Below, in pieces: positions 2,866 through 61,649 of a DNA stretch of 64,000 bases. The notes under the pieces were generated by a model. That model saw only the letters and a list, made by a program, of their open reading frames with translations. It did not search any database and was not told the DNA's origin. The DNA is from Diphasiastrum complanatum (taxonomy: Eukaryota; Streptophyta; Lycopodiopsida; Lycopodiales; Lycopodiaceae), in the NCBI GenBank assembly GCA_029204225.1, contig CM055104.1:50070182-50134181 (forward strand). Direction: 5' to 3'. The number at the start of each line of letters is the position of its first letter. Position 1 is the stretch's first letter. A program made the translations under genes and the position numbers.

Positions 2866-2983
2866 AATCGGTTGCCATTCACGGGAGTATCAAAGCGTTT
2901 TCCATCCAAGTGTTCAAGAATCACTGTTCCATAGTTCAATATTTTCTTTACTTCATACGGGCTACAAGGGAAGCTCCGCTAGA
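2866..2983 (-). pseudogene. Ty3/gypsy integrase C-terminal end
   Basis: The minus strand reads SPYEVKKILNYGTVILEH followed by a segment ending VNGNRLRKF and a stop. This is the usual end of plant gypsy (Athila/Tat-type) integrases, where a KLRSRW..GPYEV block precedes a VNGxRLK terminus. Only about 36 codons remain. It abuts the LTR at 2984 on the wrong side for an intact element (LTR upstream of the integrase end), so the arrangement is rearranged. Confidence 0.7.
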
Positions 2984-3393
2984 AGCTTCACCCCCAAGAC
3001 AAGGAATAAGAAACATGAATGTAGAGTGAAACCCTAACAATGAATCAATGATCACAATGAGGAGTAGGGCGAGTTTGGCCTCAATACATAGAGCCAAAAA
3101 ACTTGGGCACATAGCCATGCATAGCCCTAAGTCCCCTATACATAGATTCCCCTAGAATAGAGTCCTAAGCATGGACCACCTATTCATAGAATTGCTATTG
3201 ATAACTCTACACATGCATACACTGTCTCAAACCTTGTCTAAATTCCATTTAGTGTGTTCTGGACCTCACAAGGATATTAGTTACTTTCGGGTCACATCCA
3301 GTATGACGTGGCATAACTAACAGCTTGATTTACTGGAGTACCGTGTATCCAAGCTAGGAGTATACTGAATCCTACTTACTGGCCATGGACATA
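2984..3393 (-). repeat. Gypsy LTR, family G1 (truncated at its 3' end)
   Basis: On the minus strand it begins TGTTATGTCCATGG at 3393, directly preceded by a purine tract (AAGGAGGGAAGAA, 3394-3406) that fits a polypurine tract. Closely related copies lie at 30888-31350 (same orientation) and 13873-14206 (opposite). A TATA-like stretch and a leader rich in pyrimidines lie in the second half. Compared with the copy at 30888-31350 it lacks about the last 50 bases and joins an integrase end instead. Confidence 0.8.
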
Positions 3394-5530
3394 ACATTCT
3401 TCCCTCCTTAAACTGCTTCTATCCTTAGAAGCTGTCTAAACAGGAAAGAATTACAATTCCTTTAACTTTCATATTAACCGAGAAAATCATTATTCTTAGT
3501 CTGACTTTCATATCAAACAAGTACTCAGAGATAAACCTATTTCAAATTGTTGATCTTTGCTTTGGAGTACAACTCAGGTTTGAAAAGTATACTAAGCGAT
3601 AAATTTTTCATCTTGGTTACATTCATCACAATTAGTAACATATCACCTTCATGTAAAATACGTACATGAACACTGGTGAAATAACCTAACTTAAAAGATT
3701 AAAGTTAAAAAAAATAATAAAAATAATTATAATTATAGTCTAAAACTATCCACAACTCTGATAGATAATTCATAAGCTTTCAAGTACAAATATCCATTAG
3801 AATCCAATTCTACGATATGAATTCATTCAATTAGAATCTCTAGGAGAATCATTAAGATATAGAATGATTAAAACTCACTCTAAGTATTCTAGGTACACTT
3901 TTGAGTTTATATGCTCATGTTTCTAGCACCAAATACAAGAAAATAACATTCATTCATCTTAATAGGACTCGTTCTATCTCCTAAGATTATTTGGATATCA
4001 ATCTCAAATGAAGAATCTGTACTCAAGCATCTACAGACCTATAAACTATAGTAGAATAACATTCACTAGATAAATTACATTCTCCACAAATAAAATACTT
4101 ATCTTGTGAGAATATTTGTGAGATCCATAGGTTCTCAAATAATTATGAATTAGAGAGATTCAAAAATTGATCTGAATTCTTACTCAAATAATAGATCAAG
4201 AATTAATCATCACACTTAAGAATCATTACAATTCCTTATAATCTTCTGACAATAATCAAGTATCTATTTATGATTCGTCAACCATAAATATTTAGATTCA
4301 TATGATTCGTCAATCATAATTTCCTGAAATCCAAATCATACTTAGTCATTTACAAGATACTAGAGTATATGTTCCCATAACTCAGAAAAAGTAAGAGTCA
4401 TTTCAAAAATCCTTCCATTAAGAAATACTGGATTTAGGAATACTTCCAAAACATGATTCTTTAACTGAAGTGCAAGATTCAAGTTCTATAAACAACTGGT
4501 TAAAGACTGAACGCATACCAAAATGACAATCATCTTCAACTATAAAAACTTTAGATTACATCTAGATATTCAAAGTCCTGCTGAATATCAATTCAGTTGT
4601 TATTCTTGGATTCATTATAATTCATTATCCATTTGGGCTCTCTGGGATACAATCACTGATGAGCTAAGTCTATTCCTTAACTAAGGAATACTCTGTCCCA
4701 AGAATATTGTATATCCAATGCACATAATTTCAACTGATGAATCGAAATGATTCACTAATCATGTGTCTTACAAGCAATATAAATCAAAACCATAAGTTTC
4801 TGGTGAATCCACATCACACTGATCGTTTACCAATTAAGTTCATCCTGGAGTAACCAACTACTCAAGTTAATTGCCTACGATTCAGAAATCTCAAATGTCT
4901 AGATGAATAATTCAATTATACTAGTATAACACCACATTTAGATCCTTACCCAAATCATTAATAAGTTAATCCATAAATCTTCTATACAAAGATTTGTTAA
5001 CTCTGCAAGTATCTATCAAAACAATACTTGATCATATGTTTATGTTCACCGACTAGGTTAAGTGCACCAGATAACCTTAGTAACTAGGATTACACAGTAG
5101 ATTCATACAAGATTAATCGTGCACATATGAGAATAATCTCACTATGACCCAATACATAAACACATTATTACTTGGCAGAGCAGAATCGACATATGTTACT
5201 CACATATCTCACTGAGATCTTGTAACTCAGCTACAAAATATTTTCATTTCTCATGAGTAAATAACATATCCAAAAAATCTTTGAGACGAATAAAATTCAC
5301 TCTCAACAGTTCAATCCCACTTACTTCTAATTACATAATTTCTCCACTGATTAACCCCTCTCTGATTCTAGTACTTAACTAAGAATAGGTTGATCCAATA
5401 TAGAACTCAGACTTAAATTTTGATCAAACTTATTTCTATTCCACCCAAAATCGTGAGGAATTAGTAACTTGTGACCTTTACTATACTATTTATAGATAAT
5501 GAATCAAATTCCAAACTTGTTCTAGTTCCA
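3394..5530 (-). mobile_element. Gypsy G1 3' noncoding region (AT-rich)
   Basis: A roughly 2-kb AT-rich stretch without coding frames lies upstream of the polypurine tract of the G1 LTR. This fits the long untranslated region found before the 3' LTR in Athila/Tat-type gypsy elements. About 3480-4942 is clearly homologous, in the same orientation, to 57508-58962, and its first part to 31351-31530. Internal short repeats occur, such as TATGATTCGTCAAYCATAA twice at about 4268-4320. I see no gene in it. Confidence 0.65.
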
Positions 5531-5532
5531 GA

Positions 5533-6124
5533 TTGTCCACACAATCCCTAGAGAATTCCTCATTATTCGAAAGTTCAATTATGCACCGTACTCTGGAATT
5601 TATGCAAAAATTCCTTACAGATCCAATCTCATTAATCTATACCCCTAGCTGGTTCTCTATACCGAAAGATATGCAACCAACAATTCCCAATATAGAATTT
5701 ATATCCCACCCACTTCACCCCTCGAATAAAAAAGAAATTATAAATTTCATAAAAGTTAACTGGAAAGATTTGACTATGGGAAAATAGCTACATATCTAAA
5801 TCCATGAAAAGTCAGTAATAAGTGCTTCCACTACAAGGATTCTCATCAGTACAAACAGGTAAAATTTTTCAATATGAGTGATAGAAGCTACTATTCCTAT
5901 TGAAATTACTTTATGCAACAGAGATATTCTAGGTTTAAAATTGAAACATTTAACCTTAGAATTTATCTGAATTTCATGTCTATTCACACAAGTAGTAAGT
6001 TATATGAAATAACAGTCTTTTAGAAGAATAACTTCATCTTGGAAAGAATCATATAAATCAGTCTGATATCCTATATAGGAATAAATCTTCAAGATGCTTT
6101 CAATTTTTCATATATATTATATCC
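5533..6124. other. Stretch with one small unassigned ORF
   Basis: An 84-codon plus-strand frame (5533-5787; includes YTPSWFSIPKDMQP) is open but matches nothing I recognise. It might be the decayed end of a retroelement gene or chance. The rest of the stretch is AT-rich and shows no further feature. Confidence 0.25.
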
Positions 6125-6162
6125 AAACATAAGACTAACATTATGGTTTTTGACATATGCAG

Positions 6163-6352
6163 CACATACTAAGAGATCATACTGTATTTTTGGCAAACTC
6201 ATATGGAAGCTTGAGTGTATGGTCATCACAAGGGATGGAGAAGTCACATTGGCAAGCACGAGCAGCATTTCATCGAAATACACAACATGGAGGAACCAAT
6301 GTAAAATGAAACCACATTGTCAATTGTTTCAGTGGTTCTACCGCAGAGTTTA
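6163..6352 (+). pseudogene. Family E transposon gene, single exon remnant
   Basis: After an acceptor-like pyrimidine/AG stretch (TGACATATGCAG at 6151-6162) the sequence encodes, across frameshifts, LANSYGSLSVWSSQGMEKSH then a segment with WQARAAFHRNTQHGGT and CFSGST/LFQWFYR. The same exon lies at 30648-30830. I recall this KSHxxAR...HGG...FQWFYR signature from large transposon-type proteins of plants, algae and cnidarians, but I cannot name a curated domain for it. It is frameshifted and clearly not functional. Confidence 0.65.
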
Positions 6353-6557
6353 GAATCGACATATAACAAAGTCCACACAATACAACAAGTTTAGAAAAGC
6401 TTGCAAGTTCATACAGGAAGAGAAAATTAGATGATCAAATCATCATTGTCATCAAATCATGACATGTTCATAATTGCTTGCAAATTCATTGAACAAGAGA
6501 GGAGAAATACTCAATGTAAATGTATTGATTGTATTATAACAAAATACAAAGTGTCCA

Positions 6558-8059
6558 CTATTCATCATCAGCTTGTGTGTCAGATTCTATGGCAGTATTG
6601 TCATGAAGAAATCTGCTAGAGTATGCATCTAATAGATGTGCATTATCCTTATTTCCACTAAGTTCAATATAAGTAGAATACATTGAATAATGAGAGCTCC
6701 TTAAAGGAACATTCCCATCAATAAAACCTAAAATGTTCAAAACATAAGATCTTTTGACAAAAATGATCTTATTTGTCTTAACAAATTTATGTCCTCCTAG
6801 ATAAAATGATGAAGCTTTAACTGCCATTATCAGACTCTCCCCAGCTGGGCTCAGCTTCGAATGAGCAATACAGATCTCATTCTTCAGGAAATGCCTAAGA
6901 TAGTGGCCAAGTCCACTATCCCTTTGTAACGAGGATGCATGTTGTCTGAAACCACTTCGTCTCGCAGCAAAATCATCAACTATGAGACCATCTTGCAATA
7001 AGAAATATATTAGAAAAAACACATTCAATGGTTAAGAACATTCTAATGCAAGGAAGTTTAAACACTTACACATTCTCCATCATCATCAGCAACTAGATCA
7101 AGATGATCAATATAATGACCACCTACTGAAGTGGAATCATCAGTGAAATGCATTAATGATGGACGAGGGAAGCCCATTTGGGATTGAAATGTCATGAATT
7201 CTTCATTGGATGGTTTGCCTCGACCATCCTTAGCAATATTTGATAAAGTCTTAGTCAAGCACTCTTCACCAGTCATAAGTCCCTCCTCATCATCAAAATC
7301 AATTCCAGCAACAAGGTCATCTGTTTCAAAATCTACAAAGTCTAAGAATTCAAAAATTGTGCCAGATAATAAAAATAGAATTTTATCTTCACGATAGTCA
7401 AAAAACTGACATAAATCAGCTGTAGTAAAATATACATCGTCATTTATATAATATACAGACAAACTGAAAAGACATTTAGACTCCTCTATAGGGATTGATT
7501 CATCAACGGATGTATTTTGGCCAATAAAAAAATCCCGGAGCACGTCAGTATTTACATCAATAAAGGCACTTTCCTTATCAGGGGTGTCGATTAGGAAGTG
7601 ACTGATATCCTTAATAGATGACTGAACAGAGGATGATGCCATAGAAGGGTTAGCAACAGAAACTTTCTCATCATCCAAAATTTGAACTGACAGGAAAAGT
7701 ACAAAATCAGTCGACATTTCTTGTTGCAAGCAATAAGGACACATTGAATTGCTCTTGAAAAGATCAAACAATTTGGTGAACATTCTATCTAGTCTATGTT
7801 TGAAAGCTGAGAAAAAATGAACAAGATCAATATAATGCATATACGAGAGTGAACCTATGGAGATAACATGCTTATTGAGTATATCCCTGAATCTAACATA
7901 ATGTTTATAAAATACAGCAGAATTTGGTTGTGCAGTCTTGAAAACATGTAAATATGGTCTGAATAGGCTGTGAAAGTAGTCTAGATTTTCAATAATCTCA
8001 AATTCAGTAAAAAATGAACTCAGGCCTGAATCTCCTATAGATCTTGAGGAAGAGGCCAT
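6558..8059 (-). CDS. Unrecognised two-exon gene, 473 aa, divergent partner of the H3-like gene
   Basis: Exon 1 runs 8059-7072 and exon 2 6991-6558, with an 80-bp GT..AG intron (donor GTGTAAGTG). The splice keeps the frame and gives 474 codons including the stop. An ATG at 8059 (start MASSSRSIGDSGL) is preferred to the track's far-upstream start because the upstream part is the repeat-motif promoter and the TTCCATGG context matches that of the histone gene. The protein has hydrophobic/aromatic helices at about 20-110, one CxxC (CPYC), an acidic middle rich in DDE, a linker (GRGKPSNEEFMTF) and a conserved-looking basic C-terminal part (DDFAARRSGFRQHASSLQR). No signal peptide or membrane span is evident. 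I do not recognise the family. It is transcribed away from the histone-like gene across a 729-bp gap, which suggests joint control. Confidence 0.6.
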
Positions 8060-8788
8060 GGAACTACGGCAGATATCGCACTTGTGCGTTAGGGAAAACA
8101 AACAAAACAAAACTAGCTCTAAAGATTGTGCACAAGAGGAATATGTACGGCATGTAGCAATTGAATATCGGACTTGTGCGCAAGTAGGTATCGTTGAATA
8201 AAATGGACAACAAAGCACGCGCACACGAGCGATATGCTGTGAATTTTGAGAAAGAAAAAAGTAAAAAATTAGTCAAGTTTCGTGCCTTTTACACTGAATT
8301 TCCACGTGTGTGGTCAACGATCAATGGGTAGGCACTGGCACGTGTGAGGTGACACCTAGACACGTGTCTCGTGTTCATTCGTCAGTTCGACAACACATGT
8401 TGCTCTCGCATTTGGCCGTGCAAATCTCACACGTGCGACAGGACGTTCTTTTGCACGTGCGAACCGCGATATAAAATCACAAATTCTGATGAATTTTTTT
8501 TAGTTTCTTTTTTTGTTCCGCATATCGCACTTGTGCATCTCCTTCGCAATCGATATTTTGCCTACTGCCTTCCATGCTCACAACTCCGATATTTCTGCCT
8601 ACGTGTCTCCTCATATCAGACTTGTGCGCCTCTCTTCTATACTAATTGATCTCCCTGATATTTGGCTCGCACAGGTCCAATAACCGTACATTCTTTTCGT
8701 ACATATCGGTCCTCTGCGAGGGCTTCATAATCCTTCCATGCTCATCCTAGTCATCACGCACAAGTCCGATATACCATAGTACACTTCC
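8060..8788. promoter_or_regulatory. Bidirectional promoter region with repeated ATATCGsACTTGTGCG motif
   Basis: The gap between the two divergent genes holds at least five good copies of a 16-mer ATATCG(C/G)ACTTGTGCG: at 8073, 8165, 8521 and 8612 (one mismatch, ATATCAGA) on the plus strand and 8757-8772 reversed. A weaker one is at 8219-8235 reversed. The two outer copies lie 13 and 16 bases upstream of the two ATGs, in the same orientation relative to each gene, and both genes start in TTCCATGG. Several CACGTG cores (8304-8460) are interspersed. The core GCACTTGTGC is itself palindromic and contains an E-box-like CANNTG. Confidence 0.65.
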
Positions 8789-9730
8789 ATGGATAGGAGA
8801 AAGCAAACAAAGAGAGACTGCAGCAGGTGGCTCTCTGAAATACGTAAGTATCAGAGATCAACTTCTCTATTGATTCCCAGAGCTCCATTCTACTATGCCG
8901 TCCGAAACATAACTAGAAATGATCTCGGACAGCTGGTTAGATTCACACCCAATGCTCATCAGTGCCTTCAGGAAGCTGCTAAAGATTATATGAGCCTGTT
9001 TTTTGAAGATTCATTTTTGCTTGCAATTCATTCCAAGAGAGTCACCATAATGCCCAAGGACTTTCAGCTACTAATGAGAATGAGGGAGAGGTTTTGCAAG
9101 TTACACTTATCTTAGCCAGTTGCTCCCAGACCTATTCCTCTAGATATGACTGATCTTTCTACCAAGCGTCCTAGGAAGCAGGCAGCCCCCAAGAGAGCTC
9201 CGAAGAAAGTAAGGAGGGTAGATACCACTGAATCTGCGAAGCCTAACCCGGATGCAATTGTAGATAATGCTGCTCTAGATAATGTTGTAAATATAGCTAC
9301 ATCGATTTTGGATACTCCTGTAATTCCTATAGATACTACACATCCACCTCCTTCTACTCCTTCAAATCTTTATACATATATAGATTTCGATGATTAACTT
9401 AAATTTGAGAAGGATATAGCCGATGCTATAGATAGAATTGGTATTCTTTTTTGTTTTAGACTAGAGGAACTTGACTTTAGTATAAACTATAGAGTTGTTG
9501 ATTGTTTGGATCTCAAAAATAGACGAGCTTCTATCAGTGATCCTGTGATAGAGTCTGGGCTTACACTCTTGCAATATGACATTGCAAGAGATTCATCCTA
9601 TGAATTGCTGGTGCTGAGTAACTTTTTGTTTCAGGCCTTCAAGGAGAATAACGACACGTTGTCACAGTGTCTGACTAGTGGATTCACACCAGCAACAAAA
9701 TACCTACTCGTCTCTTATCATACCAAGTAA
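8789..9730 (+). pseudogene. Histone H3/CENH3-like protein with short tail and long C-terminal extension (two in-frame stops)
   Basis: The first 108 codons (8789-9115) are a histone fold of the H3 type: alphaN (SEIRKYQRSTSLLIP), alpha1, loop 1, alpha2 (LQEAAKDYMSLFFED) and the H3 hallmark AIHSKRVTIMPKDFQL. LLIP and a loop 1 one residue longer than in canonical H3 resemble plant CENH3, while MPKD is H3-like. The tail is only about 14 residues: it keeps the positions of R2, K4, Q5, T6 and R8 (MDRRKQTKRD), has Asp at position 9, and lacks everything up to alphaN. After TAG (9113-9115) the same frame continues with a basic NLS-like stretch (KRPRKQAAPKRAPKK), an Asp/Pro-rich region, a TAA (9395-9397) and about 110 more codons of helical character, to 9730. 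Both stops would be undone by a single C-to-T change. The unbroken protein would have about 313 residues. Alternatively the gene ends at 9115 as a minimal histone. Confidence 0.75.
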
Positions 9731-9785
9731 GATATATTAAATGCTTCTTGCTGTTTAATGTTTTTCATTGGCATTGTCAATGAAA

Positions 9786-10016
9786 ATAGTTCTCAGAATT
9801 GCAGCCAAAGAAATTTCAATCTTTTTGCAGTGACCACTGGAGTTTAAACCTGATCTCCATTAAGAGATTTGTAGATAATATCGTTAAAGGTTTTTGTGTA
9901 ATAGTTCTCAGAATTGCAGCCAAAGAAATTTCAATCTTATTTTGCAGTGACCATTGGAGTTTAAACCTGATCTCTATTAAGAGATTTGTAGATAATATCG
10001 TTAAAGGTTTTTGTGT
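9786..10016. repeat. Tandem duplication, two units of about 115 bp
   Basis: The unit beginning AATAGTTCTCAGAATTGCAG at 9786 is repeated at 9900 with only a few differences. It lies just behind the histone-like frame and may be part of its 3' region. It includes frames in both directions that are only by-products of the repeat. Confidence 0.85.
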
Positions 10017-11099
10017 CAAGATGAACTTGGCTAGCAATACGCATAAGGATTAGAATAACATAAACATGTATGAAAACCTCTGTAAAGATGGCCCTCATTA
10101 AGACCTATTATGAATGTTAAAGTCTAAAATCTATAATAGCATGAATCATAATATACTCGTATTATCATGTCTTTAAGTTCTTGCTAGCAGTTATATGTTT
10201 CTCCTTCCTCTTGAAAGCCGCTAAAGAGCAGATCCACCAAACGGGACACAACGATTACTTACTCTCCCATCTAAAAGCTACGCATGATTCTGAAAGATAA
10301 TTTTGCGAGCATTGATGATACTAGACGCTGCATGAGTGTTGAGGACAACGCCATGAACCACTGTGACCTGAGCTTTGGGCTTCATGTGTGGCAATTTGAC
10401 AAAGGAAATAATGATCATGAAGCAAATGATTACCATAGACTGCACAATTTTCTGCCTACATCGATTGATATATCCCTTTTCAGGTTCAGTGACTGTACAA
10501 TGAGGATGTTCGCAATACAAGTTTGAAACAGATGCTGGTTACAACTTCACAATTTGAGAGGGCAAGTATTCCACGCATGTAGATTGAAGAGAATTGTATA
10601 CACATGTTAGGAGTCCTGTGCAAGCTCAGGGCCTAATGCAGAGTTTACTCAAAGATCATTGTTTTAACTATCACAACTCACGAGAACAAGGCCAATACTT
10701 CATAATATCTACGAACATACCTACAAGTATTAAAGACATAAAGATAATACACCTACAAAACAAAGAATCACAGAGTATGATACAACCTCAATATCTTCAA
10801 AATTCAGACTTTCTTGAAATTCACAGGCTCTAGTGTGCTTTGCCCTGCTTTTCTAATATTCGGAACATGAATCCACCACTCGGAATCGCAACATGAACAT
10901 AAATCGTTTCAGCCGAAGAACGCAAGAGAACGACGAGAGAGAGAGAGAGACATATACCTTATTTAAATTCTCAGGGAGACATGCCTGTTGGGAAACTCCT
11001 AGTGTGCATCATCATCGCACAGAAAAAGCAAGCGCATGGAGATCAATCCAACTTGTAGTAGAACCAAAGTGCATGCACAACTGCCCACTACTTTTATCA
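10017..11099. other. Stretch without recognisable gene
   Basis: Short frames on both strands around 10278-10526 overlap each other and look like chance. A short GA run lies at about 10938-10953. I see no further element. Confidence 0.4.
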
Positions 11100-11685
11100 A
11101 GAAAAAAAAAATTGGTAAGAAATCGATGAATGATCATGTATGCCTCATCTACATCCTATAGCTTACTAGGAAAAAAACGTTGTGGTTGCAGTACGTATAC
11201 TCCTGCAGGATCACTTTATGACCTTCCTTCTGAATAAACTCCACCAATTCGATCAGGTGGTCGTGCAAAGGATTGAGAGCTCCAGCTAGCACCTAGCGAT
11301 GGTGGCCACCAGATCATCTTCAGCGGGTCGGGATTCTCTGCAGGTAACATATTAGTTGACAGACTGATCACTAATTGTGTAAACAAAAGCACAGATGAAA
11401 GCACAAAGGTCTAACGTTGCTGAAAAAAACTGGTAAGAAATCGTTGCATGATCATGTATGCCTCATCTACGTCATCCTATGGCTTCCTACTAATTCTAGG
11501 AAAAGAAAGTTGTGGTTGCAGTATGTATACTCCTTTAGATCACTTCATGATCCTTCCGAATAAACTCCACCAATTCAATCAGTGGGTCATGCAAAGGATC
11601 GAGAGCTCCTGCTACCACTACTAGCGATGGTGGCCATTGGATCGTCTTCAGTAGGTCGAGATTCTCCGCAGGTACGAAGGAGCAA
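11100..11685 (-). pseudogene. Tandemly duplicated carboxylesterase-like (alpha/beta-hydrolase) remnant
   Basis: Two direct copies (about 11100-11350 and 11424-11685, offset about 320 bp) each encode on the minus strand a motif of the type PAENLDLLKTIQWPPSLVVV then LDPLHD and LIELVEFIRK. This resembles the C-terminal part of plant CXE/GID1-like carboxylesterases, where a PPTLVVVAGxDPLxD block carries the catalytic Asp. The left copy is frameshifted inside the block and the right one stops soon after (HEVI). No catalytic Ser or HGGG region is present. Confidence rests on one motif only. Confidence 0.45.
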
Positions 11686-11899
11686 TATGGTCGACTTTTG
11701 TTTGCCTTGTGTGGAAGTGAGAGCATCCATAAAGCGTCTGTCAGTTCCAGGGTTACGAGTTCATCGCTTTTTGCATACTTGATATCTGAGCTTGTTCTGG
11801 TTATGTAAAGAAAAGAACGCCTAAGATCAGAGACCACGGATAAATTGCAGATGAACAGAGCTAGCGGCTGCTGCTCTCAGCGCTACAAGATGCACGATA

Positions 11900-12650
11900 A
11901 TGGGGCCAGCGCTGTGTCCATTAAAATTCACTTGGATAAGTGTGCATGAGAAATGCTTCCTTGTACATAACGTCTTAGAATCTTTTGGAATCCTAAGATA
12001 TACCCAGTCATTAACTTTAAAATCTCTTGGAGATCTATTAAGATCGGTATAGTGTTTAGCTCTATCTTGAGCACTTCGGATGCTATCCTTAGCCACTTGC
12101 AACATTTCTTGGATATCATGCAAAAAATCAACAACCTTTTGGATCTTAACAGACTTAGTCTCAATATTCACTGGAGATGTAGGTTGAAAACCGTACATAA
12201 ACATAAAAGGACTGTAACCTGTAGCAGAATGTTTTCTACTATTATATGCAAACTCAACCAGTGGGAGATAATCTTCCCAATGAGATTGTTTGTGAGAAAA
12301 ATATATTCTCAAAATATCTTCCATAGTTTGATTAGTCCTTTCTGTCTAGCCATCTAAATTAGGATGATTAGAAGAACTTAAACTCAAAGAAGTTTCAAGT
12401 TTATGGAATACTGCTGACCAAAAGTGAATTGTGAACTTAGGATCTCTATCACTAACAATGTCACTGGGCAGACCATACAACCAAAATAATCTTTCAACAA
12501 AGATTTGGGCTAAATCAGAAGACTTTATAGTTGACTTGACTGATATGAATGCAACTAACTTAGTTAACCGATCCAGTACAACCCAAAGAGAATCATTTTG
12601 TCGATGGGCTAGCCCTAATGAATGGGATTTTGGAAAAGCATGTGTTGCCT
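11900..12650 (-). pseudogene. Ty3/gypsy integrase core fragment
   Basis: The minus strand encodes the catalytic core in order: LWVVLDRLTKLVAFI (first Asp), IVSDRDPKFT (second Asp), then NHPNLDG-stop-TERTNQTMED with the catalytic Glu, and PLVEFAYNSRKHSATGYSPF. A stop interrupts the usual DGQTER. The C-terminal part (RDFKVNDWVYLRIPKDSKTL) follows in the same frame and ends near 11900. It is the same gypsy lineage as 44860-45800. RT and LTRs are absent here. Confidence 0.85.
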
Positions 12651-13865
12651 CAGCCACATCTTCAACATAAGTCAAAAGATGGCGTTGTTATTTGCGAACA
12701 TCATCTCCCACTCGGCATGCATAAACGTGATGTCTTCAAAACTATAAACACACATCTTAAAAATACGTGTTTTCCAGAAGTTTCAAGATCCACACTCTAC
12801 AAGATGTGGAGACAAGAATTTGGACATGTCAAGACTCCAACAAGACAAAGAATGTCCAAATGCAAAACATGTGACGAGCTTAAAAATGCAATAGAAACAA
12901 CTCTCGACGCTAGGATGTGTGATCGTTATATTGCATTAAGAGGTCATCATCTACATCATGTTTTCAATTCCAGAAAATTGTATGCATATTGGAAAGAAGA
13001 GTCAAGATTCCATCATGAGTAGTCTTTGTGTCTTATCATTGATGGAATTGATCAAAATACAGCAACATTATCCCGTTTCAATAAGACTCCTCCTAGATTA
13101 GAGGGAAATCAATTTTTGAAACACATGTTTGTGGGGTATTGGTTCATGGATTCAAGTTGCTCTGTGATGTTTGGATTGATACCTTGCATGCTCATGATAG
13201 CAATCAAGTTGTCACATCAATAATGCGAGCAATAAGAAAGGTACAAGCATCACGTGATAACTTACCTCCGATCTTACGTATTCAAGTTGACATTTGTTGG
13301 CGGGAGAACAAGAACAAATTTATTTTTGGTCTTTGTTGTATGTTAGTGGCACATAACATCTTTCAAAAGGTAGAAATGGGATTTCTTTTGTTTGGCCACA
13401 CATATGAAGACATACATCAGGTTTTCAGTGTCATATCTAGGGCTTTGAAGTCCAAATCAGTTCACACAATGCCAGATATGCTAGTACGAATTGGTGAAAA
13501 GATAGGTGGTGGTCGAAAGCACTAAATTAAAAATACTGGAACGAATGATAGATTGGAAACAATTTATAGATCCTTCTATTGCTCAAGGAAATGACGACTT
13601 AGAAAGACACACCAATCCTCACTATTTTTATTTTCAAATGATGAATGGTGAGCCAACCATGCAATGGAAATACTATTCTAATGATGGAGACAACGCATGG
13701 AGTGAACCTTTCAACCCGTTGCAGCGTGTACCTTCAAAAGATGAAGCCATCTCTATAACATCCACAAAGGATTTGGATCCTGATGAAATGAAAAGAATAG
13801 TGTCCTTTATTGATTATTTGCGGTTCATGAGTCAGAAAAAAAATGTTATCAGGATCAATGTATAG
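12640..13865 (+). pseudogene. DUF7869-like transposon protein, broken
   Basis: The frame encodes LGMHKRDVFKTIN, a CxxC segment (MSKCKTCDELKNAI), then after an in-frame TAG (13020) CLIIDGIDQN. A frameshift near 13135 follows, then RIQVDICWRENKNKFIFGL and FGHTYEDIHQVFSVISR. I associate the trio IIDGxDQN / LxxDNCWRENKN / VGHTHEDIDQ with DUF7869 proteins, which have a likely RNase-H-like fold with three acidic positions. A last block (13506-13865; MIDWKQFIDPSI, NPHYFYFQM) matches their usual C-terminal part. Here DN has become DI and HTHEDID has become HTYEDIH. One stop and at least two frameshifts make it inactive. Confidence 0.7.
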
Positions 13866-16598: not shown

Positions 16599-16934
16599 AT
16601 GGAGACATTGGATTATTCTGAGTATGAAGTTTTTTCAATTTGTGTTATTCCAGTTGTGGATGTTCCTGAAATGAATCTAAATGGTTGTGAATTCTCAGCA
16701 ATTCTTAGCTCAGTGAATTTAGATCATGAACAAGTAGTGGAAGAACAGATCATAGATGAATTTAGAGATGTTTTTCCATCTGAATTACCTCATGGTTTAC
16801 CACCAACTAGGTCAATAGACCACATGATTGAGTTAATTTCAGGAAGTCAACTTGTCTATAGACAACCCTTATAGGTTCTCTCAAAACGTGGAGGCAGAGA
16901 TTTCAAATCAAATAGAAAACTATCTGAGGATGGG
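16599..16934 (+). pseudogene. Ty3/gypsy reverse transcriptase, N-terminal fragment
   Basis: This holds the connector and start of RT: IIDEFRDVFPSELPHGLPPT, RSIDHMIELISGSQLVYRQP, then after a frameshift QIENYLRMGVC. It ends abruptly at about 16934 where the duplicated 3-kb unit begins; the RT palm and the YxDD motif are missing. Confidence 0.85.
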
Positions 16935-17748
16935 GGTTTGCATACTTTTTAAGGATACGTTTTGCTGTCACGATAGCAAGCAGTCTAGAAATGGAATTGG
17001 ATGTGTTTTTTTCAAAGTTGAGCATGTTTTCCTTGGCAGACCGGTGATCAGTACAGAGGTGAAAGGATTTTGCATGCAGTTGTATCAACAGTTTCGCAAT
17101 CAAAACTGACTCCAGCAGAATTGCTGCAGATCAAAGCGATTCACAAAATCACAGTTCTCAAAGTTTTCAAGGTATTTTCTCTCAATTGAACAGCTCATCC
17201 TACCTATGATCTATCATGTCAAGTGTTAATAGGAATCGATGTCCTACGGTAATCGAGTCCGCATGTAGATGATTTCAACAAGTTTTTCTATGACATGTCT
17301 CAAGTGTATTTCTAGCAGAAACTGGTGAACAAACTTTGTAATCGTAATTTGAGTCAGTTGGCGAGCGACACAGGAGCTTGTTGGAACGAATTTTATGATC
17401 CCCTTTTGCAAGTAAAATTGCGATGGCATTGAATTGGAAAGTGTTGTGTTAAGGTTTCTCGAATGCAAGTGGCTTTAGCAGGGACTTGTGTGCTACAGTC
17501 TGATGTTTTTATATACAAGAGTACTCTTGGGTTTAACGTCAAGGGGTTTATGGATTTCTTGTCTTTGGTGTATGTAGTTGCTTCAATTTTATTTTGTATT
17601 TGAGGGTTGTGGAGGGCTATAGAGAGGTTGTGGGCTTTTGCAATGGCATTTGGGGATGAGGGATTCTTGAAATTGGATTGTGGTTTCTTGACAATTGCTA
17701 TGAGAATGAGACTTGTTTTGAAAAATTGATTGGTGACGCAGGAGTACC

Positions 17749-18393
17749 ATGGCCAATCCCCACCTCATCCTAGAGGATTCGGACAGGAGAGCCGCCAGAG
17801 TGAGAAACGACTTTCGGATCCTCGAACTCGAGCGCAGGAGTAACCTGCACACGAAGCTCTTGTTCGGGTTCTTGGAGAGAGATGTCGTACTCGCTGCAGT
17901 AGAGATCCTTCAGTGGAGTATTCAGAAGAAAGGTCAAGAGTCTGGGGATTGCCGGCAATTTTACGACACGAGGCCATCTGTCAAGGCGATGGTGTTGGTA
18001 AGAGATTGTTATTTTGATTCTGTTTGTAGTTCTCTGATTTCAGCATGCTTGTGATTATGTTTGCAGGACTTGTCAAGTTTTTTTGTTCCTGCTAATTTGA
18101 TTTAACTTCTTTATCGGTCTTGTTTGTAGATGGCATGCCGCGCTTATGGGGTCTATGGAGATTCCCCAAGTAGCCGGGACTTGGAGGCTTTCAAAGCTAT
18201 CACTAAGAAGGTCATCAAAGATCGCAATGATACCGCTCATCTGCAAGATATTGGATGCCTTGATCCTCTGGTGAAGAATTGCCAGGTTGGAATTAAGGCT
18301 TGGCCGGAAATCCCCCAGCAATATCCGGAGCATGTGACTATAATCAACAATTACGAGCCCTTTAAGCAGGCTCTACCTGAGTCTTTCCAGTGA
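17749..18393 (+). CDS. Unrecognised two-exon gene, 170 aa, in the duplicated unit
   Basis: Exon 1 is 17749-17997 (83 codons) and exon 2 is 18130-18393 (87 codons and stop). The 132-bp intron GTAAGAG...TTGTTTGTAG is phase 0. The protein starts MANPHLILEDSDRRAAR, has a helical segment (SNLHTKLLFGFLERDVVLAA), a charged middle (SIQKKGQESGDCRQFYDTRP) and a C-terminal half with MACRAYGVYGDSPSSRDLEA and WPEIPQQYPEHVTIINNYE. No catalytic motif, signal peptide or membrane span is obvious, and I do not recognise it. A TATA-like TTTTTATATACAAG lies about 235 bp upstream. The copy at 47397-48037 is similar but frameshifted, so this one is the better preserved. Confidence 0.6.
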
Positions 18394-18721
18394 CTTCTAG
18401 TGTTAATAGTTCATGTAGTTTCAGTCGGTTAGCAACAATTTTTCAAATCCCTCTTTCATTTGGCCTAGAAATTCGGCAAGATTATGGTTTTGATACTGTT
18501 ATTGCCTGCTAGAAATTTTCAACTTGACAAAAGACATGTAAAACACAAGACTCAATAACATTTGTTGCATCATACTTGACATGTTGTGCACAATAGAAAA
18601 ATCATTGTCATTTGCTACTTTAAAAGTTTCTTTGCATGTAAATTTGTGGATTGAAATAGACAATAAAAGCTACATAGTTCATTCTCTTCAAAATATAAGA
18701 ACATCGTGATGAGAAGGTCTT

Positions 18722-18985
18722 TTGCTTATATTATCAATGTTTATGCACCTTAATGTCACTAGTTCGGGATACTTCCCTGCTGAATGGAAAGGTGAACTGC
18801 AGAGTTCAATCTCGGCTCTGGTGTTTCCAAACATTTGCGATGCTGTCTTTCCTTGGTTGCATTATCTTCAGTTCTATCCCACTGTTCCATCATACGTTGT
18901 CAATGTTCCTCAGAAAAGTGTCGTTGCTGATCTTCTGTATTACGTTAGAAAGTCATTAAAAAGCTCGCTCACCCTTGGACAATGA
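18722..18985 (+). CDS. Possible second exon/frame in the duplicated unit
   Basis: An 87-codon frame includes FPNICDAVFPWLHYLQFYP and VPQKSVVADLLYYVRKSLKS. The same peptide, with few changes, is encoded in copy 2 at about 47035-46870 (minus), although there a stop follows early. It has no start context and could be a 3' exon of the preceding gene or a piece of another captured gene. Conservation may simply reflect the recent duplication. Confidence 0.3.
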   Translation: MLILSMFMHLNVTSSGYFPAEWKGELQSSISALVFPNICDAVFPWLHYLQFYPTVPSYVVNVPQKSVVADLLYYVRKSLKSSLTLGQ

Positions 18986-19999
18986 TTGCAGCAATCCCCG
19001 CAGGACATCAGACCGTGCAACTGCAGATTTAGTGAGGGATTTTGATCTGTTCTCTATGAATATCTGATCAGACAACACTCTCTGAACCACTGCTCGCCTC
19101 TCGTCAACTCATTCAAAACCTGCAAGACTGCTAGAGATCGATGACACAACATTTTGGGCAGCCCTCCTTTTCTGTCGACATATCATTTACTAAACATGGT
19201 GGTTGCTCAATCTCCTCAGATAAAGATGCTTTGGCAGCCTTCTTTCGTAATCTACATCTTCGTTGTCTCTCCCTCGCTTGTGCCCGCACATCGTTCCTCC
19301 TCAACTAATCTCTCCCTCTGCCTAGGACCACCCTCTTCACACCTAATTGCCTCTGTGCATGTCTGTTGATGAGTTACAAATCATCAAAGTACTAACATCT
19401 GCGTGCGCGAGCAGCATTCGCAATCGAACATGGAGATAGCTCAACTCACTCAACATTCTCATGTGATCTCGTGTGTTCCCAGACGTTCTCCGGCCAGTTC
19501 CCGAGCTTGTACTCAAATTCTGTTCGAAATTAGGCTGATCACATGTAGCAGGGATTATTACATTAATTTGTATTTTGTATTTCTTTGCCCACCTAGATTG
19601 TACAAGTTTGAGTGTATAGCAAAATTTTTCTTAATGATAATTAAAGAGAAGAATATGGACTTACAAGCCTCTAACATACTAGAAAGTCACTAGTTACTCA
19701 TTTCATAGTTATTTTGAATCTAAATTTACCATAGATTCATCTATCTAAAACTGAGTCATTATTTCTTATATCCAATTTTTATTATATTAAATTGAATCCA
19801 AATTTAAAACTTCGGCAGCACGAAAAGTCCCTATTGTACAAGATGAAAAGTCTTATATTTATATTTCAAACATCTATATATAGAAAGCACAACTTGTATG
19901 TCTTTATAATCAAGTTAGTATGCTCCATACAAATTTTGGTCAAGTGATAACTAGTATTTTATACTCTTACACATTTTGCAATTCAAACCACCTAACAAA

Positions 20000-32810: not shown

Positions 32811-33138
32811 TGTAGAACACCTGATCAGACAGGTCTTGATTCTACTAACAAAGCACGCACTTTACATGACAAAGGATAAGAAACAGAGATGTATACTGAG
32901 TTAGATTCAGAATTATAAATTTGTTTTTGAACAATAGTTTATAATTGTCTAAAAATTGTCTTAAGTTGTCTCTTCTACCGCATACTATTTCCGCACGCAT
33001 ATTCAATCAGAGCAAATACTATTCTATTAGTACATAGATCAAATACAGACCCGATTAAAGACACTGATATTAGTTTGATTTATTCAAACTTTCATCGTGT
33101 TCTCTATGGAAGAATAATTATCTTTTTCCTATAGAACA
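32811..33138 (+). repeat. Copia C 3' LTR (328 bp)
   Basis: It begins TGTAGAACACC directly behind a purine tract (TTTGAGAGGGAGC) and ends TATAGAACA, giving a TG..CA structure. Most of it (from 32892) is repeated, inverted, at 61205-61452. The 5' LTR is not in the window as a recognisable copy. Confidence 0.8.
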
Positions 33139-33910
33139 TGCACTTCAACGACTTCAGGTCTCCAACCAAATGCCATTCCACCTTAAAATCACCTATTCTA
33201 GGAACATTGAGTGATGTGTCGCTGCTATAATTCTTAATTATCTCTAGATAAATTGTTTTACTAAAATCCAAAATAGAATGTCATGATCTTCTTTTAAAAC
33301 CTGTTTGAAATACAAAATCATGAACTATGTTAAGAGAATTGAACAATATTACTCGATCAAGTATATTTAAAACTTAGACCTATAATAGCAAAACGATATC
33401 AGCTTAAAACACAAAACCATAAATTCTCGAAATGAATTAGTTGCTAGTACTCAATAAAATAGATTTAAATCTGGAAAACTGCTAACCACCAGATATTATT
33501 TTCGGACTGCACACTGAAATTAAGACTCTCCGAGTTTATCGTATTGCTTAATGCTCCATTCATAAGTGTAACACTAACCCTTTCTAGCTTTTGTCCCTTT
33601 ATTACTTCTGATTCATCTAACTTGAGAACTAATATCAAATTTTCAACACTTTCACTTGTGATTCCATAAAACTTTACAATAAATTTCAGTAAATGATTCA
33701 AATCTACAAACATATTGTTGGTGGACTCATATGACAAAGTGCCATGTTTTGAGTTATAAATTTCATTGATATGGTAAGGAATACCAATGATGTTTTGCAA
33801 ACCCCTATTTAACACATCCCTTTCTAATTTTATTTGAAATGGCCGAGGAATAGGAGAGTTTTTGTATGTATTTGTCCAAATGCCTCTTTGATAATTTTAA
33901 ACATTGTGTC
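33139..33910 (-). pseudogene. Family E transposon gene, copy E2 part 1 (interrupted by copia A)
   Basis: On the minus strand the exon encodes ERDVLNRGLQNIIGIPYHIN, SYESTNNMFVDLNHLLKFIV, LILVLKLDESEVIKGQ and ENNIWWLAVFQ. After an intron of about 150 bp comes the exon with DHDILFWIF and the SLNVPRIGDF-like block. The 116-codon stretch 33815-33465 is open. It is collinear with 60420-61205 and continues, beyond the copia A insertion, at 37295-37660. Confidence 0.7.
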
Positions 33911-33915
33911 ATATG
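33911..33915. repeat. Copia A target-site duplication, left (ATATG)
   Basis: The five bases ATATG precede the LTR and recur at 37295-37299 behind the other end. The homologous unoccupied site at about 60425 has a single copy. Confidence 0.85.
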
Positions 33916-35343: not shown

Positions 35344-37203
35344 TTGAGAGTGTGTAACAACATTTATTGTTCATCATTTGAGTTTTCCTCACTTCAAATG
35401 TCTTCAATGGGTTCATCCTTGTTGGAACCAAGTGAGAGATTGACTACTTCAAATTATTCAATTTGGAAAATGAGGATGGAGTCCATCTTGATCCTTCAAG
35501 ACGTGATGGACATAGTTCTTGGCCCTGAAGAAGAACCACAAGTTCTTCAAGAGGTTCAAAAATACAAAAAGAGAGCTAGGATGGTTCTCCACTACATTAA
35601 GATGAATATCTCTAATGAGATATTGAGGGAGATAGGTACTTGTACAACAGCCAAAGAAGCTTGGGATTGTCTCAAGACTATCTATGAGGCTAAGAATACC
35701 TCTAGGCTTCTCACTCTTAGGAATCAAATCTTTCAAAGTAGCCAAAAGAGTGATGAGAGTGCATCTAGTTATGTTTTGAGAGTAAAAGATATTCATAGAG
35801 AGCTTGCTTGCATTGGTGATTCCATCAATCAAAATGAGATAGTTCAAGTCATTCTCAATGGCTTGAGAAGTGAATTTGATAATCTTGTCCAATCCTATGC
35901 CATTAAGGAGGAGCTACCAAGTTTGGAGGCTCTCCAAAGTGTGCTAATTTCAGAAGAATCAAGACAAGAGTACAAGCTCTTGAGGATGGACAAGCTTTCT
36001 CTCACTCATAATGATGGCAAAGCTCTCTTTGCCAAGGATAAGCACAAAGAGAGGAGCAAGAACCAACATCAACAATCCTCAAGCAAGGACAAAGTCAAAT
36101 CCAAAGACAAAGATGAGGAGGAAGATGATTCCTCTAATGCTTCATCATCCAAGCTCAAGAAGAAGAAGAAGATCAAGTGCTTTTATTGTGGCAAGAAAGG
36201 TCATTATGCCACCAATTGCTTCAAAAAGAAGAATCAACTCAAGCAAGCCAATATAACCAATGAGAAGGAAGACACTATTGCAAGTGATGGAGAGGGATCT
36301 CTTATGGTCTCTAGTTTCTCATCTACTCCTTTCAAGAAGGATGGCCTATGGTATATTGATAGTGGAGCCTCTTCACATATGTGTAGCTCCAAGGACTCTT
36401 TCTCTTCTATTGCACCTTATGATGGAGTGAAGAAATCAATATACACTGCAAATGATTTTGAATGTCCTATTGAAGGCATAGGGAACATTCCCTTGAAGCT
36501 TGCATCCTCTAAAGTTCTTTCTCTCTCTAGAGTTCTTTATATACCTAAGCTTACCAAGAATCTTATTAGTGTTGGCCAATTGCTTGATAATGGCCTTGAT
36601 GTAAAATTCAATGTTGATACTTGCACTATCAAGAAGAATGATGAGATACTTGCATTAGGATCTAGATTTGGTGGCATCTATAAACTAGATCCAAATGAGT
36701 ATGTGAATGCTTGTAATGTTGCTCTTGTGAACAAGCTCTCTATGGAGGAATTATGGCATAGGAGGTTGGGACATCCCAACTACAAATCCATGCTCTCTAT
36801 GATCAAAGAATCCAAAGCTATTGGCTTGCCAAAGTCATTCTCCAAGAAGATAAAGCCTTGTGAGGCTTGTGCTATTGCTAAATCTCACAAAAAGCCATTT
36901 ACAAGATCTCCTATCAAAAGCAATCATCCTTTGGAGTTAATCCACTCGGATGTGCATTTCTCATCAACTACAAGCAAGGGAGGAGCCACTTGTTTTGTTA
37001 CTTTCATTGATGATTACACAAGATTCACTTGGATATATCTTCTTGCTTCAAAATCTATAGTGTTTGATCATTTCCTTATTTTCAAAGCTTATGTAGAGAA
37101 GCAATTCTCATTCAAGATTAAAGCTCTTAGAAGTGATGGAGGTGGTGAATATATCTCCAATAAATTTCAAGATTTTTGTGAGCTTGAAGGCATTAAATCT
37201 TGA
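35344..37203 (+). CDS. Copia A1 gag-protease-integrase polyprotein, open 619 codons, truncated in integrase
   Basis: One uninterrupted frame; the likely true start is the second Met (MSSMGSSLLEP, 35398). Order: gag UBN2/DUF4219-type (SNYSIWKMRMESILILQDVM, about residues 35-210), knuckle CFYCGKKGHYATNC (about 280), protease WYIDSGASSHMCSS (about 338), GAG-preINT with the zinc ligands WHRRLGHPNYKSML and CEACAIAKSHKKPF (about 470-520), then integrase with LIHSDVHF and LRSDGGGEY (first two catalytic Asp). It stops at ELEGIKS where internal sequence joins the 3' LTR remnant. The catalytic Glu, RT and RNase H are missing. Although open, it cannot transpose alone. Confidence 0.9.
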   Translation: MRVCNNIYCSSFEFSSLQMSSMGSSLLEPSERLTTSNYSIWKMRMESILILQDVMDIVLGPEEEPQVLQEVQKYKKRARMVLHYIKMNISNEILREIGTCTTAKEAWDCLKTIYEAKNTSRLLTLRNQIFQSSQKSDESASSYVLRVKDIHRELACIGDSINQNEIVQVILNGLRSEFDNLVQSYAIKEELPSLEALQSVLISEESRQEYKLLRMDKLSLTHNDGKALFAKDKHKERSKNQHQQSSSKDKVKSKDKDEEEDDSSNASSSKLKKKKKIKCFYCGKKGHYATNCFKKKNQLKQANITNEKEDTIASDGEGSLMVSSFSSTPFKKDGLWYIDSGASSHMCSSKDSFSSIAPYDGVKKSIYTANDFECPIEGIGNIPLKLASSKVLSLSRVLYIPKLTKNLISVGQLLDNGLDVKFNVDTCTIKKNDEILALGSRFGGIYKLDPNEYVNACNVALVNKLSMEELWHRRLGHPNYKSMLSMIKESKAIGLPKSFSKKIKPCEACAIAKSHKKPFTRSPIKSNHPLELIHSDVHFSSTTSKGGATCFVTFIDDYTRFTWIYLLASKSIVFDHFLIFKAYVEKQFSFKIKALRSDGGGEYISNKFQDFCELEGIKS

Positions 37204-37294: not shown

Positions 37295-37660
37295 ATATGC
37301 ATCCATGTTAATACTAGAATAATCACATGCTCCTTGTATCAATTTTCGGTCAATAATCCTGCCGACTTCGCCTATAAGGGCCTCTGCAATCTTGGACTTG
37401 ATTCAAAAATATTGTTGATTTCCGAGTAGACTCGTCTTTGACTTGGCTACAAGTACTGCACTCAAAGACTTCCCAATCATGTCCATGTCTTTCAGATTTT
37501 GATTGGTGACTAAAGTTGATCTACAAAATAAAAATCAGATTTAAAAAAAAACTATTCACAATCATTGATGTGCTAAATGAAACAAAACACATGAATAGTT
37601 CAAAACAAAATCTTACTTGAAAGCATATATTCTTTTTTTCCGTTGACCCCCACTTCATGA
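37295..37660 (-). pseudogene. Family E gene, copy E2 part 2
   Basis: The minus strand continues the E exon interrupted by copia A (GCGAAGTCGGCAGGATTATTG = GEVGRII..., then SSINMDAY) and the preceding intron. It matches 60057-60420 closely. It ends at GAGCTTTCATG where copia B begins. Confidence 0.65.
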
Positions 37661-37666
37661 AAGCTC

Positions 37667-38357
37667 TGTGAAAAATTGCCTACATTGGCAAATCTAGCCA
37701 TGTAGAATATTGTACATTTTGTCAATATTTTTTGTTAGACACTTGAATGGCCAAAGTGCCACTTGTCAATCCACACCTAATGTAGGTTACCACGAGTCAA
37801 GAGGAGTGGTTGTCTCCATTTGGTAGTGATTCCTACTTTGTAGGATCTATAGCATGATTTTTGATGAGATTTGTACTTACCATGCACCTACCAAACATGA
37901 CTATTGGATCTGGGTTAGGGTTTTTACATTAGGGCAAGAAAGTTGAGTCTACTTCCTTATTACATGCTACATTTTTACCTAAATTTGCAAAGGAAGTGTC
38001 TTTTACTGTGTATTCCCATTCTCCATAGTGAAAAGATAGAAACTTTTTGGAGCCTCAAGGAGAAACTCGGATTTTCTCTCTATGTATGGTGATTGTGATT
38101 GATTCCAATGTAGCTAAGCTTTGGCACACTTTAGACTCTATGTACAGGCCATACTACAGCCTCCTTTTCACACGTGTGAAGCCGAATTTCAGTTTATGAT
38201 CAATGTTCTGATTGTCTCTACTTGTTTTCTATCAAGCTACTAAACTAGATCTTGTTTTCTGATGACTAGTATCTAATAGATTGTTTAACAAGCACACAAT
38301 CAACCTTGTGGATCATTCAAAGATCCATTTATGGTCCTTAGTACTGTACTTTTCACA
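37667..38357 (+). repeat. Copia B 5' LTR (691 bp)
   Basis: It begins TGTGAAAAATTGCC and ends ACTTTTCACA, followed at once by a slightly mutated primer site (TGCTATCAGAGCC, 38358-38370). It contains the palindrome TTCACACGTGTGAA. The same LTR, inverted and with an intact primer site, is at 59365-60056, abutting the same E-family sequence. Confidence 0.9.
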
Positions 38358-38991
38358 TGCTATCAGAGCCAAGTACAAGGCTATTGATCAGTGTTTGAAA
38401 CTAATCCAATTTTAGCAAGTTTTTGGTGCAAAAAGCTAATACTGGAAGGGCGAGCTGATATCTTGGAATTGCTGAGGGGATTTGATCCCAAACTTTTTGT
38501 GGATCAAAATCCATACTGTTCACACGTGTAGGCAAATCTGAACCAACATTTAAACCCCCATATTCATTGGATCACTGTAATTTCATCTGGTGTTAGTTTG
38601 ATGTAAGTTTTGGTGCAAATCCTAGAATAAGCTACTAAGATCACTTGCCATTAATTAGTTTTGGATTTGATTCATGATAAATAATTAATCTAGGCTGATT
38701 TCAAACCTTTTTAAAGTGGAAACCAGGTCTAGAAAGTACATCAAAGTGAAAGAGAGAGATAGAGTCATTCTATTGTCCAAAAATAGCCAAGATTGCCAAG
38801 ATTTGCTTGAGAGTAGTTTTCACTTCATCTTATCTTCATTCCAGCTTTGTGAGGGAGTGATAGAACTATGATTACAAGTCCATTTGTTGGATTAGAAGTC
38901 AACATTTGAGTGAAACACTACAAGTTAGAAACCTTTGTGAGTTTCAAGTTCAACCAAATCTATATCTTGTGTGTAGAATCTCACTAGTAAG
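38358..38991 (+). other. Copia B primer site and leader
   Basis: The primer-binding site TGCTATCAGAGCC is followed by an untranslated leader up to the gag ATG at 38992. The leader to about 38757 is also present, inverted, at 58963-59351. It has no gene. Confidence 0.75.
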
Positions 38992-45800: not shown

Positions 45801-45861
45801 GGATATTCTAAGGTATATATGGCTTCAAGATATATTTTAACTTCACCTACACGAGTATAAA

Positions 45862-58962: not shown

Positions 58963-59364
58963 TCTCTCTCTTTCACTTTGATGTACTTTCTAGACGTGGT
59001 TTCCACTTTAAAAAGGTCTGAAATCAGCCTAGATTAATTATTTATCATGAATCAAATCCAAAACTAATTAATGGCAAGTCATTTTGGTAGCTTATTCTAG
59101 GATTTGCATCAAAAATTACATCAAACTGACACCAGATGAAATTACAGTGATCTAATGAATATGGGAGTTTAAATGCTGGTTCAGAGTTGTCTAAACGTGT
59201 GAACAGTATGGATTTTGATCCACAAAAAGTTTGGGATCAAATCCCCTCACCAATTCCAGGATACCAGCTCGCCCTTCCAGTATTAGCTTTTTGCAAGAAA
59301 AACCTGCTAAAATTGGATTAGTTTCAAACACTGATCAATAGCCTTGTACTTGGCTCTGATACCA
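58963..59364 (-). other. Copia B leader and primer site, inverted copy
   Basis: It is the reverse complement of 38358-38757. The primer site is intact here (complement of GGCTCTGATACCA, 59352-59364). The element body is missing: the copy is cut at 58963 in the untranslated leader. Confidence 0.85.
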
Positions 59365-61204: not shown

Positions 61205-61452
61205 TGTTCTATAGGAAAAAGATAATTATTCTTCCACAGAGAACACGATGAAAGTTTGAATAAATCAAACTAATATAAGTGTCTTCAATCGGCTCTGTAT
61301 TTGATCTATGTACTAATAGAACAGTATTTGCTCTAATTGAATATGCGTGCGAAAATAATATGTGGAATAAGAGACAACTTAAGACAATTTTTAGACAATT
61401 AGAAACTATTGACCAAAAATGAATTTATAATCCTGAATCTAACTCAGTATAC
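61205..61452 (-). repeat. Copia C LTR, inverted partial copy
   Basis: Reverse complement of 32892-33138. It starts at the same junction with the E gene (GCATG then TTCTATAGG) and breaks off inside the LTR at CAGTATACATCTCT, which marks the outer edge of the inverted duplication. Confidence 0.8.
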
Positions 61453-61649
61453 ATCTCTTGTTGTCTTATCTCGTTGTTGTGTCTCTGAGTTACAATGAGC
61501 AATGTTGTAACAGTAGATATCTTACCGTTTACGATGGTTGATATTCAAATAGACGCTTTGTTTCCAAGGTCGAATAATTTCTTTTCGCGAATTATTCACG
61601 ACAGTCCATCTTCTTCCCATCTTCTTCTCAGTCAGTATCCTGATGATAT

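Follow-up and report, generated by a model that had tools for sequence, protein, structure and literature searches.

Two genes lie head-to-head in the window (the whole 64-kb stretch of DNA that was analysed): one on the forward strand, whose open reading frame (ORF) is matched by histone H3, and a partner gene on the reverse strand, which starts at 8059 and apparently has two exons. The features of the locus are as follows.

6558..6992, reverse strand: candidate exon 2 of the partner gene, about 144 residues, orphan; an open frame after an acceptor-like CAAG.
7070..8059, reverse strand: exon 1 of the partner gene, 330 residues, pI 4.4, orphan; within a 404-codon open frame.
8060..8788, no strand: bidirectional intergenic region, 729 bp between the ATGs; CpG observed/expected (o/e) 1.22, CHG o/e 0.68.
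8073..8235, no strand: left motif array, ATATCGSACTTGTGCG at 8073, 8129, 8165 and 8220 in alternating orientation.
8303..8459, no strand: five CACGTG (G-box) sites between the arrays, within 157 bp.
8470..8477, forward strand: TATAAAAT, candidate TATA box of the histone gene, read from the sequence.
8522..8772, no strand: right motif array, ATATCGSACTTGTGCG at 8522, 8577, 8613, 8668, 8703 and 8757 in alternating orientation.
8789..9115, forward strand: H3-fold ORF, 108 residues with an N-terminal tail of ~10 residues; matched by PF00125 and PDB H3 chains.
9116..9397, forward strand: C1, a 93-codon in-frame continuation of the open histone frame after the TAG, ending with TAA.
9164..9205, forward strand: basic patch KRPRKQAAPKRAPK, resembling H3 K14-K27 (9/14 identities); a plausible nuclear-localisation signal.
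9398..9726, forward strand: C2, a further in-frame coding stretch up to a splice donor, assigned from its open frame and codon score.
9831..10053, forward strand: candidate exon 2 of the histone gene; acceptor TTTTTGCAG at 9822-9830, open frame 9790-10053.

The limits of the histone ORF are exact, with the ATG at 8789 and the TAG at 9113-9115. A first-pass annotation had described its 108 residues as H3-like, with helices alphaN to alpha3 complete and the hallmark motif kept, and had proposed a comparison with PF00125; these statements hold. The Pfam search returned PF00125 (E 9.4e-24, 84.4 bits against the curated cut-off of 26.4), and H3 chains from the PDB were aligned to residues 14-99 down to E 1.1e-20 among the matches listed (the best 60 of 175 distinct sequences). 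All seven candidates of a protein database search reached E<=0.001, with identities of 47-53%. Over the core, identity is 54% (46/85) to plant H3.1 and 52% (44/85) to animal H3.3. The AlphaFold2 model, made for a longer frame of 311 residues, has helices at 11-28, 35-44, 54-82 and 89-106, corresponding to alphaN to alpha3; pLDDT, averaged by block, is 79-89 over residues 31-100 but falls to 54-63 in the first 30 residues, and alphaN is accordingly predicted at low confidence. Foldseek placed a nucleosome chain first for this model (48% identity, probability 1.00, E 1.1e-3); with most of the 311 residues modelled uncertainly, none of its 267 matches came to E<=0.001. The motif KRVTIMPKD is intact, LLIP is present, and loop 1 has one residue more than that of H3. 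Profile matches and the predicted model together show a real H3 fold at 8789..9115, far beyond chance. A literature search of titles and abstract openings found nothing about such a histone among the papers listed.

In fixed register with H3 1-11, the N-terminus MDRRKQTKRDCS is identical at 5 of 11 positions, a score reached by 71 of 20,000 shuffles. H3 positions 2, 4, 5, 6 and 8 are retained and position 9 is Asp, exactly as the annotation had read them (R2, K4, Q5, T6 and R8 kept). Residues 10-13 align with roughly H3 43-46, and the tail is therefore represented by about ten residues; H3 residues ~12-45, about 34 residues, are absent from the N-terminus. The residues before the core resemble only H3 1-8, and no full-length tail with K9, K14, K27 and K36 is found there. 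The annotation had also considered a full tail in upstream exons. As an in-frame TAG lies at 8777-8779, 10 nt upstream of the ATG, and MDRRKQTKRDCS leads directly into alphaN with no space for an intron, the shortening of the tail lies in the gene itself. An internal deletion between about H3 residue 11 and 45 would have removed most of it.

The core was compared with 20 other H3/CENH3-type sequences (14 database hits and 6 reference sequences) over 85 columns. Of the 14 columns invariant in these 20 sequences, 13 are kept; in the remaining 71 columns the count is 34 (Fisher p 0.0015). The test leans to kept columns because the database hits were found by similarity to the query. With the six reference sequences alone, 26 of 35 invariant columns are kept against 19 of 50 others (p 0.0009). 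Changes occur in five columns that agree to at least 90%, namely R69 to Y, L70 to A, A91 to C, A127 to L and R128 to M (H3 numbering taken from the alignment). Among contact positions of H3, 4 of 13 DNA-contacting basic positions are lost (R40, R49, R63 and R69) and 3 of 8 positions of the H3-H3 bundle are changed (C110, A114 and I130), the other five being identical. To judge from these columns, the divergence appears mostly to have obeyed the rules of a working histone, which is a statement about the past only and not about today: the intact frame and the preferential keeping of invariant columns argue for past constraint and are compatible with a recent loss of function.

The annotation had likened the ORF to plant CENH3 on account of LLIP and the longer loop 1. 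The extra loop residue stands, but LLIP is not specific to CENH3 among the 14 database hits, occurring also in P0006, P0007, P0009, P0010 and P0015. Ten core positions are diagnostic, having one residue in both plant CENH3 reference sequences and another in H3.1; the ORF is CENH3-like at five of them, H3-like at three and like neither at two. In a comparison with human CENP-A alone, 2 of 29 positions are CENP-A-like and 10 are H3-like. The proposed tree was built from 21 rows, in which the ORF forms a long branch (1.43) inside no supported group and is thus placed nowhere. By its residues, the ORF is of H3/CENH3 type and is not called a CENH3 here. It shares with plant CENH3 P for R63, A for L65, T for A75, T for Q85 and S for T107, besides LLIP and the longer loop, whereas Y54, F84, R131 and KRVTIMPKD are those of H3. 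The tail of plant CENH3 is long, in contrast to the ~10 residues found here; the C-terminal extension and the lack of grouping with CENH3 in the tree are further differences. From canonical H3 (H3.1/H3.3), to which it is linked by the four predicted helices, the KQT start, KRVTIMPKD and H113/R116/D123, the ORF differs in the absence of residues ~12-45, the one extra loop residue and coding beyond the natural C-terminus.

After the TAG, the histone frame remains open for 93 codons to a TAA at 9395-9397 and then for 110 codons more. C2 ends at a consensus donor (AA/GTAAGA, with GT at 9727), and the apparent stop at this point is part of the donor. Within 9116-9721 (202 codons), the histone frame has one stop as against 19 and 22 in the other forward frames, and none of 5000 mononucleotide shuffles of this stretch had at most one. 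With training on the partner exons and the histone ORF, C1 and C2 together have a codon score of +23.0, the next frame +5.7; training on transposon ORFs lowers the score to -6.9, which no other frame exceeds. C1 alone scores +12.8 with the former training, the best of six frames, and -9.4 with the latter, second to another frame at -6.0. C2 (9398-9721) is free of stops in the histone frame; the two other forward frames contain 8 and 15. Its codon score is +7.1. The single stop in 202 codons, together with the codon score, suggests that the frame is coding-like past the TAG and that a former protein had at least 311 residues. The two in-frame stops suggest in turn that this histone copy has begun to decay. 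Introns by which splicing would bypass the stops were considered and dropped on reading the sequence: a 25-nt intron over the TAG (GT at 9091 to AG at 9115) was rejected as too short, and an intron over the TAA (GTAAGG at 9209 to a TTTTAG ending at 9459) was rejected for an out-of-phase join into a stop.

In the protein database search with the extended frame, 7 of 662 candidates had E<=1, and each of them covers 27-32% of the frame, which is the histone part. A Pfam search of C1, C2 and the exon-2 frame gave no match at E<=0.1; AlphaFold2 confidence is low beyond residue 110, and no second histone fold was recognised in the extension. Candidate exon 2 carries much of a tandem duplication of ~117 bp at 9785-10016, the copies being about 97% identical; the duplication includes the splice acceptor and the start of the exon, and the frame is open through both copies. 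The exon is a weak candidate because its codon score is near zero or negative. Further downstream, an open frame at 10275-10526 has a slightly positive codon score in parts and is possibly another exon.

Within C1, the patch KRPRKQAAPKRAPK shares 9 of its 14 residues with H3 14-27, among them the Lys residues 14, 18, 23 and 27; this match was noticed before being tested. Compared with the H3 tail, C1 is the top of 1118 stop-to-stop frames in the window (score 39, next 30), and among 53 K/R-rich frames it alone reaches 39. This score was reached by 22 of 5000 shuffles of the basic segment, 6 of 3000 of C1 and 87 of 3000 of the H3 tail. Other tails also score against C1, 36 for an H1-like tail and 31 for that of H2B. 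The likeness of KRPRKQAAPKRAPK to H3 K14-K27 is suggestive at the level of residues, and a bipartite nuclear-localisation signal is a plausible plain alternative. The annotation had stated that the region of K14 to K36 is gone, which is correct for the N-terminus but leaves aside this K14-K27-like stretch in frame after the stop.

No relative of the partner gene was found: none of 6931 protein database candidates for the joined partner protein had E<=1, and no Pfam family exceeded its cut-off. Candidate exon 2 has a pI of 8.1, and its codon-position GC is similar to that of exon 1. The strongest donor of exon 1 gives no in-frame join to it, and the partner gene may therefore be damaged or the splice model wrong. 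An H2A-like fold in exon 2, considered from its hydrophobic spacing, was rejected, as no H2A chain is among 29 PDB sequences at E<=10, nothing was found in Pfam, and the spacing would require a shortened alpha2. The AlphaFold2 model of this exon (mean pLDDT 35) is useless. Paralogy of the partner and the histone gene was likewise rejected (best BLASTP E 1.6 in a two-sequence search).

Head-to-head histone gene pairs with shared, element-rich promoters exist. The present pair is like them in its divergent genes and shared element-rich promoter, and differs in that the partner is not recognisable as a histone. At up to three mismatches, all nine ATATCGSACTTGTGCG sites of the window fall inside the intergenic region (shuffles: mean 0.42, largest 2), which is a matter of clustering and not an independent discovery because the motif was defined from this region itself; the site at 8129 is weaker, with four mismatches. 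Spacings are 55/36/56 in the left array and 55/36/55/35/54 in the right array, and the arrays end 13 and 16 nt before the left and right ATGs, respectively. ATATCGSACTTGTGCG is not known as a plant histone-promoter element, and a literature search by its letters gave matches that contained only ATATCGGACTTG. Five of the 21 CACGTG sites of the 64-kb window lie between the arrays, the window being enriched in this motif overall (21 against a shuffle mean of 3.5). The 1-kb interval 8001-9000 has the highest CpG o/e of 64. Arrays of matching order and spacing around a G-box cluster make joint regulation of the pair a natural inference from the sequence. The leaders of the two genes align with a Smith-Waterman score of 34 (maximum of 500 shuffles, 31). 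A common origin of the leaders was rejected, since one shared 16-bp box alone scores ~34 and little else is aligned; only shared boxes are therefore claimed. RNA folds of the leaders at 8515-8788 (forward) and 8060-8240 (reverse) are more stable than those of shuffles (z -3.9 and -2.4), and leader hairpins are not claimed because the predicted folds do not simply pair neighbouring boxes.

The locus had been placed in a transposon-dense block, and this description is borne out by Copia-type domains, a retroviral-type protease, remains of DUF7869 and many repeats. Among ten ORFs tested against Pfam, two have Copia-type domains and one the protease. Depletion of CpG and CHG is a mark of long CG and CHG methylation in plants. 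The two Copia-type ORFs (35344-37203 and 55250-57061) have o/e values of 0.03 for CpG and 0.08 for CHG, much nearby DNA being undepleted, and may be interpreted as a sequence fossil of heavy CG/CHG methylation. Values for CpG and CHG are 0.29 and 1.36 in the histone ORF, 0.47 and 1.11 in C1 and C2, and 0.33 and 1.29 in partner exon 1. In CpG, the gene bodies (o/e 0.26-0.47) are close to the low value of the whole window (0.42), and their CHG is not depleted. By 1-kb intervals, mean CHG o/e is 1.03 in the five of the locus against 0.71 in the other 59 (Mann-Whitney p 0.011, neighbouring intervals not being independent). The repeat to the left of the locus (2979-6342) has a CHG o/e of 0.96, and depletion is just as absent from several further parts of the window; the CHG values therefore argue against long silencing without proving a host gene.

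Apart from the local tandem duplication, 6343-11104 occurs nowhere else in the window by self-BLAST (>80 bp, E<=1e-8), and the gene pair is single within the 64 kb. Repeats framing the pair were seen neither in 6000-10800 nor, at these limits, by self-BLAST of the window. Within the window, neither the mobile or selfish locus proposed in the annotation nor its use in avoiding silencing marks is supported: the unit does not recur, no framing repeats were seen, and the gene bodies are not CHG-depleted like the Copia copies, although other repeats of the window are undepleted too. Scans of viral contigs with the histone, the extension, the partner exon and the histone profile gave 7, 10, 9 and 51 pattern matches, none of which was confirmed as a relative by tblastn; their sensitivity is therefore limited. 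At this sensitivity, the four scans lent a viral origin no support.

The preferred reading, held with about even confidence, is a strongly diverged plant variant gene of H3/CENH3 type that has lost its tail, carries a C-terminal extension, stands in a head-to-head pair and is possibly decaying. The genome is taken as plant-like from its Copia-type elements and the CG/CHG depletion. The coding region of the variant gene would formerly have run into an extension of ~200 residues with the basic patch, and a single bidirectional promoter would drive, or once have driven, both the histone and an acidic orphan protein. The kept residues D106, H113, R116, D123 and L126 point to pairing with H4 and to an H3-H3 contact. 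H3 tails bear marks that silence transposons and define chromatin states. A nucleosome with the short-tailed histone would be without the N-terminal K9, K14, K23, K27 and K36, and by known H3 biology the writers and readers of their marks could therefore not act there; escape from silencing marks would require, besides the missing tail, that the protein is actually produced. The basic patch might act as a nuclear signal or as a substitute tail, and the acidic partner could, speculatively, be a chaperone or loading factor. A nearly tail-less H3-fold protein with an apparent paired promoter would show the capacities of the fold when the tail is missing, and would tell whether nucleosomes free of such marks are retained in a genome for some purpose.

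An ordinary decayed copy of a host H3/CENH3, its tail lost by random deletion and its locus without function, is a serious though unlikely alternative. Such a pseudogene would fit the two stops in the downstream coding frame, the ~117-bp tandem duplication across the candidate exon border, the best donor that gives no in-frame join of the partner exons, and the transposon-rich surroundings. However, the histone part has neither stop nor frameshift though only about half of its core matches H3, invariant columns were kept preferentially, and the intergenic region is still CpG-rich. Even as a relic, the locus would still record an H3/CENH3-like lineage with a C-terminal extension that had no relative in the protein database search.

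A rather improbable reading is that the 108 residues are the whole of a working H3 variant with almost no tail, and that the downstream stretch is a second ORF (ATG at 9146) or yields readthrough products. The TAG about five residues past the natural H3 end, the in-frame stop upstream of the ATG, the predicted fold and the five identical positions among the eight of the H3-H3 bundle agree with such a protein, but the downstream stretch lies in the same frame and is broken by a TAA, unlike a separate working ORF.

Some viral or transposon control regions have divergent genes around arrays of palindromic boxes. The histone doublets of Marseilleviridae have a shorter connector in place of the H3 tail, and H2A-like folds of medusavirus carry lysine-rich C-terminal tails (PMC9145170). 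The histone ORF is like these in being without most of the H3 tail and in the basic C-terminal patch, and differs in that no second histone fold was recognised and no viral relative confirmed. That the pair is a relic of an unrecognised mobile element or DNA virus with its own histone for chromatin refusing silencing marks is nevertheless quite improbable: the orphan partner, the divergent genes around a palindromic box array and the tail-replacing connector known from viral histones (PMC9145170) would suit it, but no relative was confirmed in the viral contigs at the limited sensitivity of the scans, no framing repeats were seen, and the gene bodies are without CHG depletion.

An extension of the preferred reading of a diverged variant gene is very improbable, namely that the modifiable tail has moved, with residues like H3 1-8 before the fold, a K14-K27-like stretch behind it and the acidic partner co-expressed from a palindrome-array promoter. 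If this were true, marks would be shown from the wrong end, and the usual H3K9/K27 machinery would be blind to the nucleosome.

Several observations concern the remainder of the window. Neither Rfam (at gathering score) nor a tRNA scan gave a hit. Coding remains of DUF7869 (PF25273) lie at 13139-13865, with E 2.1e-38 for 13139-13525 and a weak match for 13506-13865. Nearby, on the other strand from these remains, an integrase-like frame at 11827-12675 is Gypsy-like by eye only, and 11827-12324 is without a Pfam match. Inverted repeats that are 90-96% identical and ~20-27 kb apart pair 16934-19977 with 45859-48790, 32869-33915 with 60425-61477, and 37295-38761 with 58961-60429, suggesting inverted or nested copies of elements.
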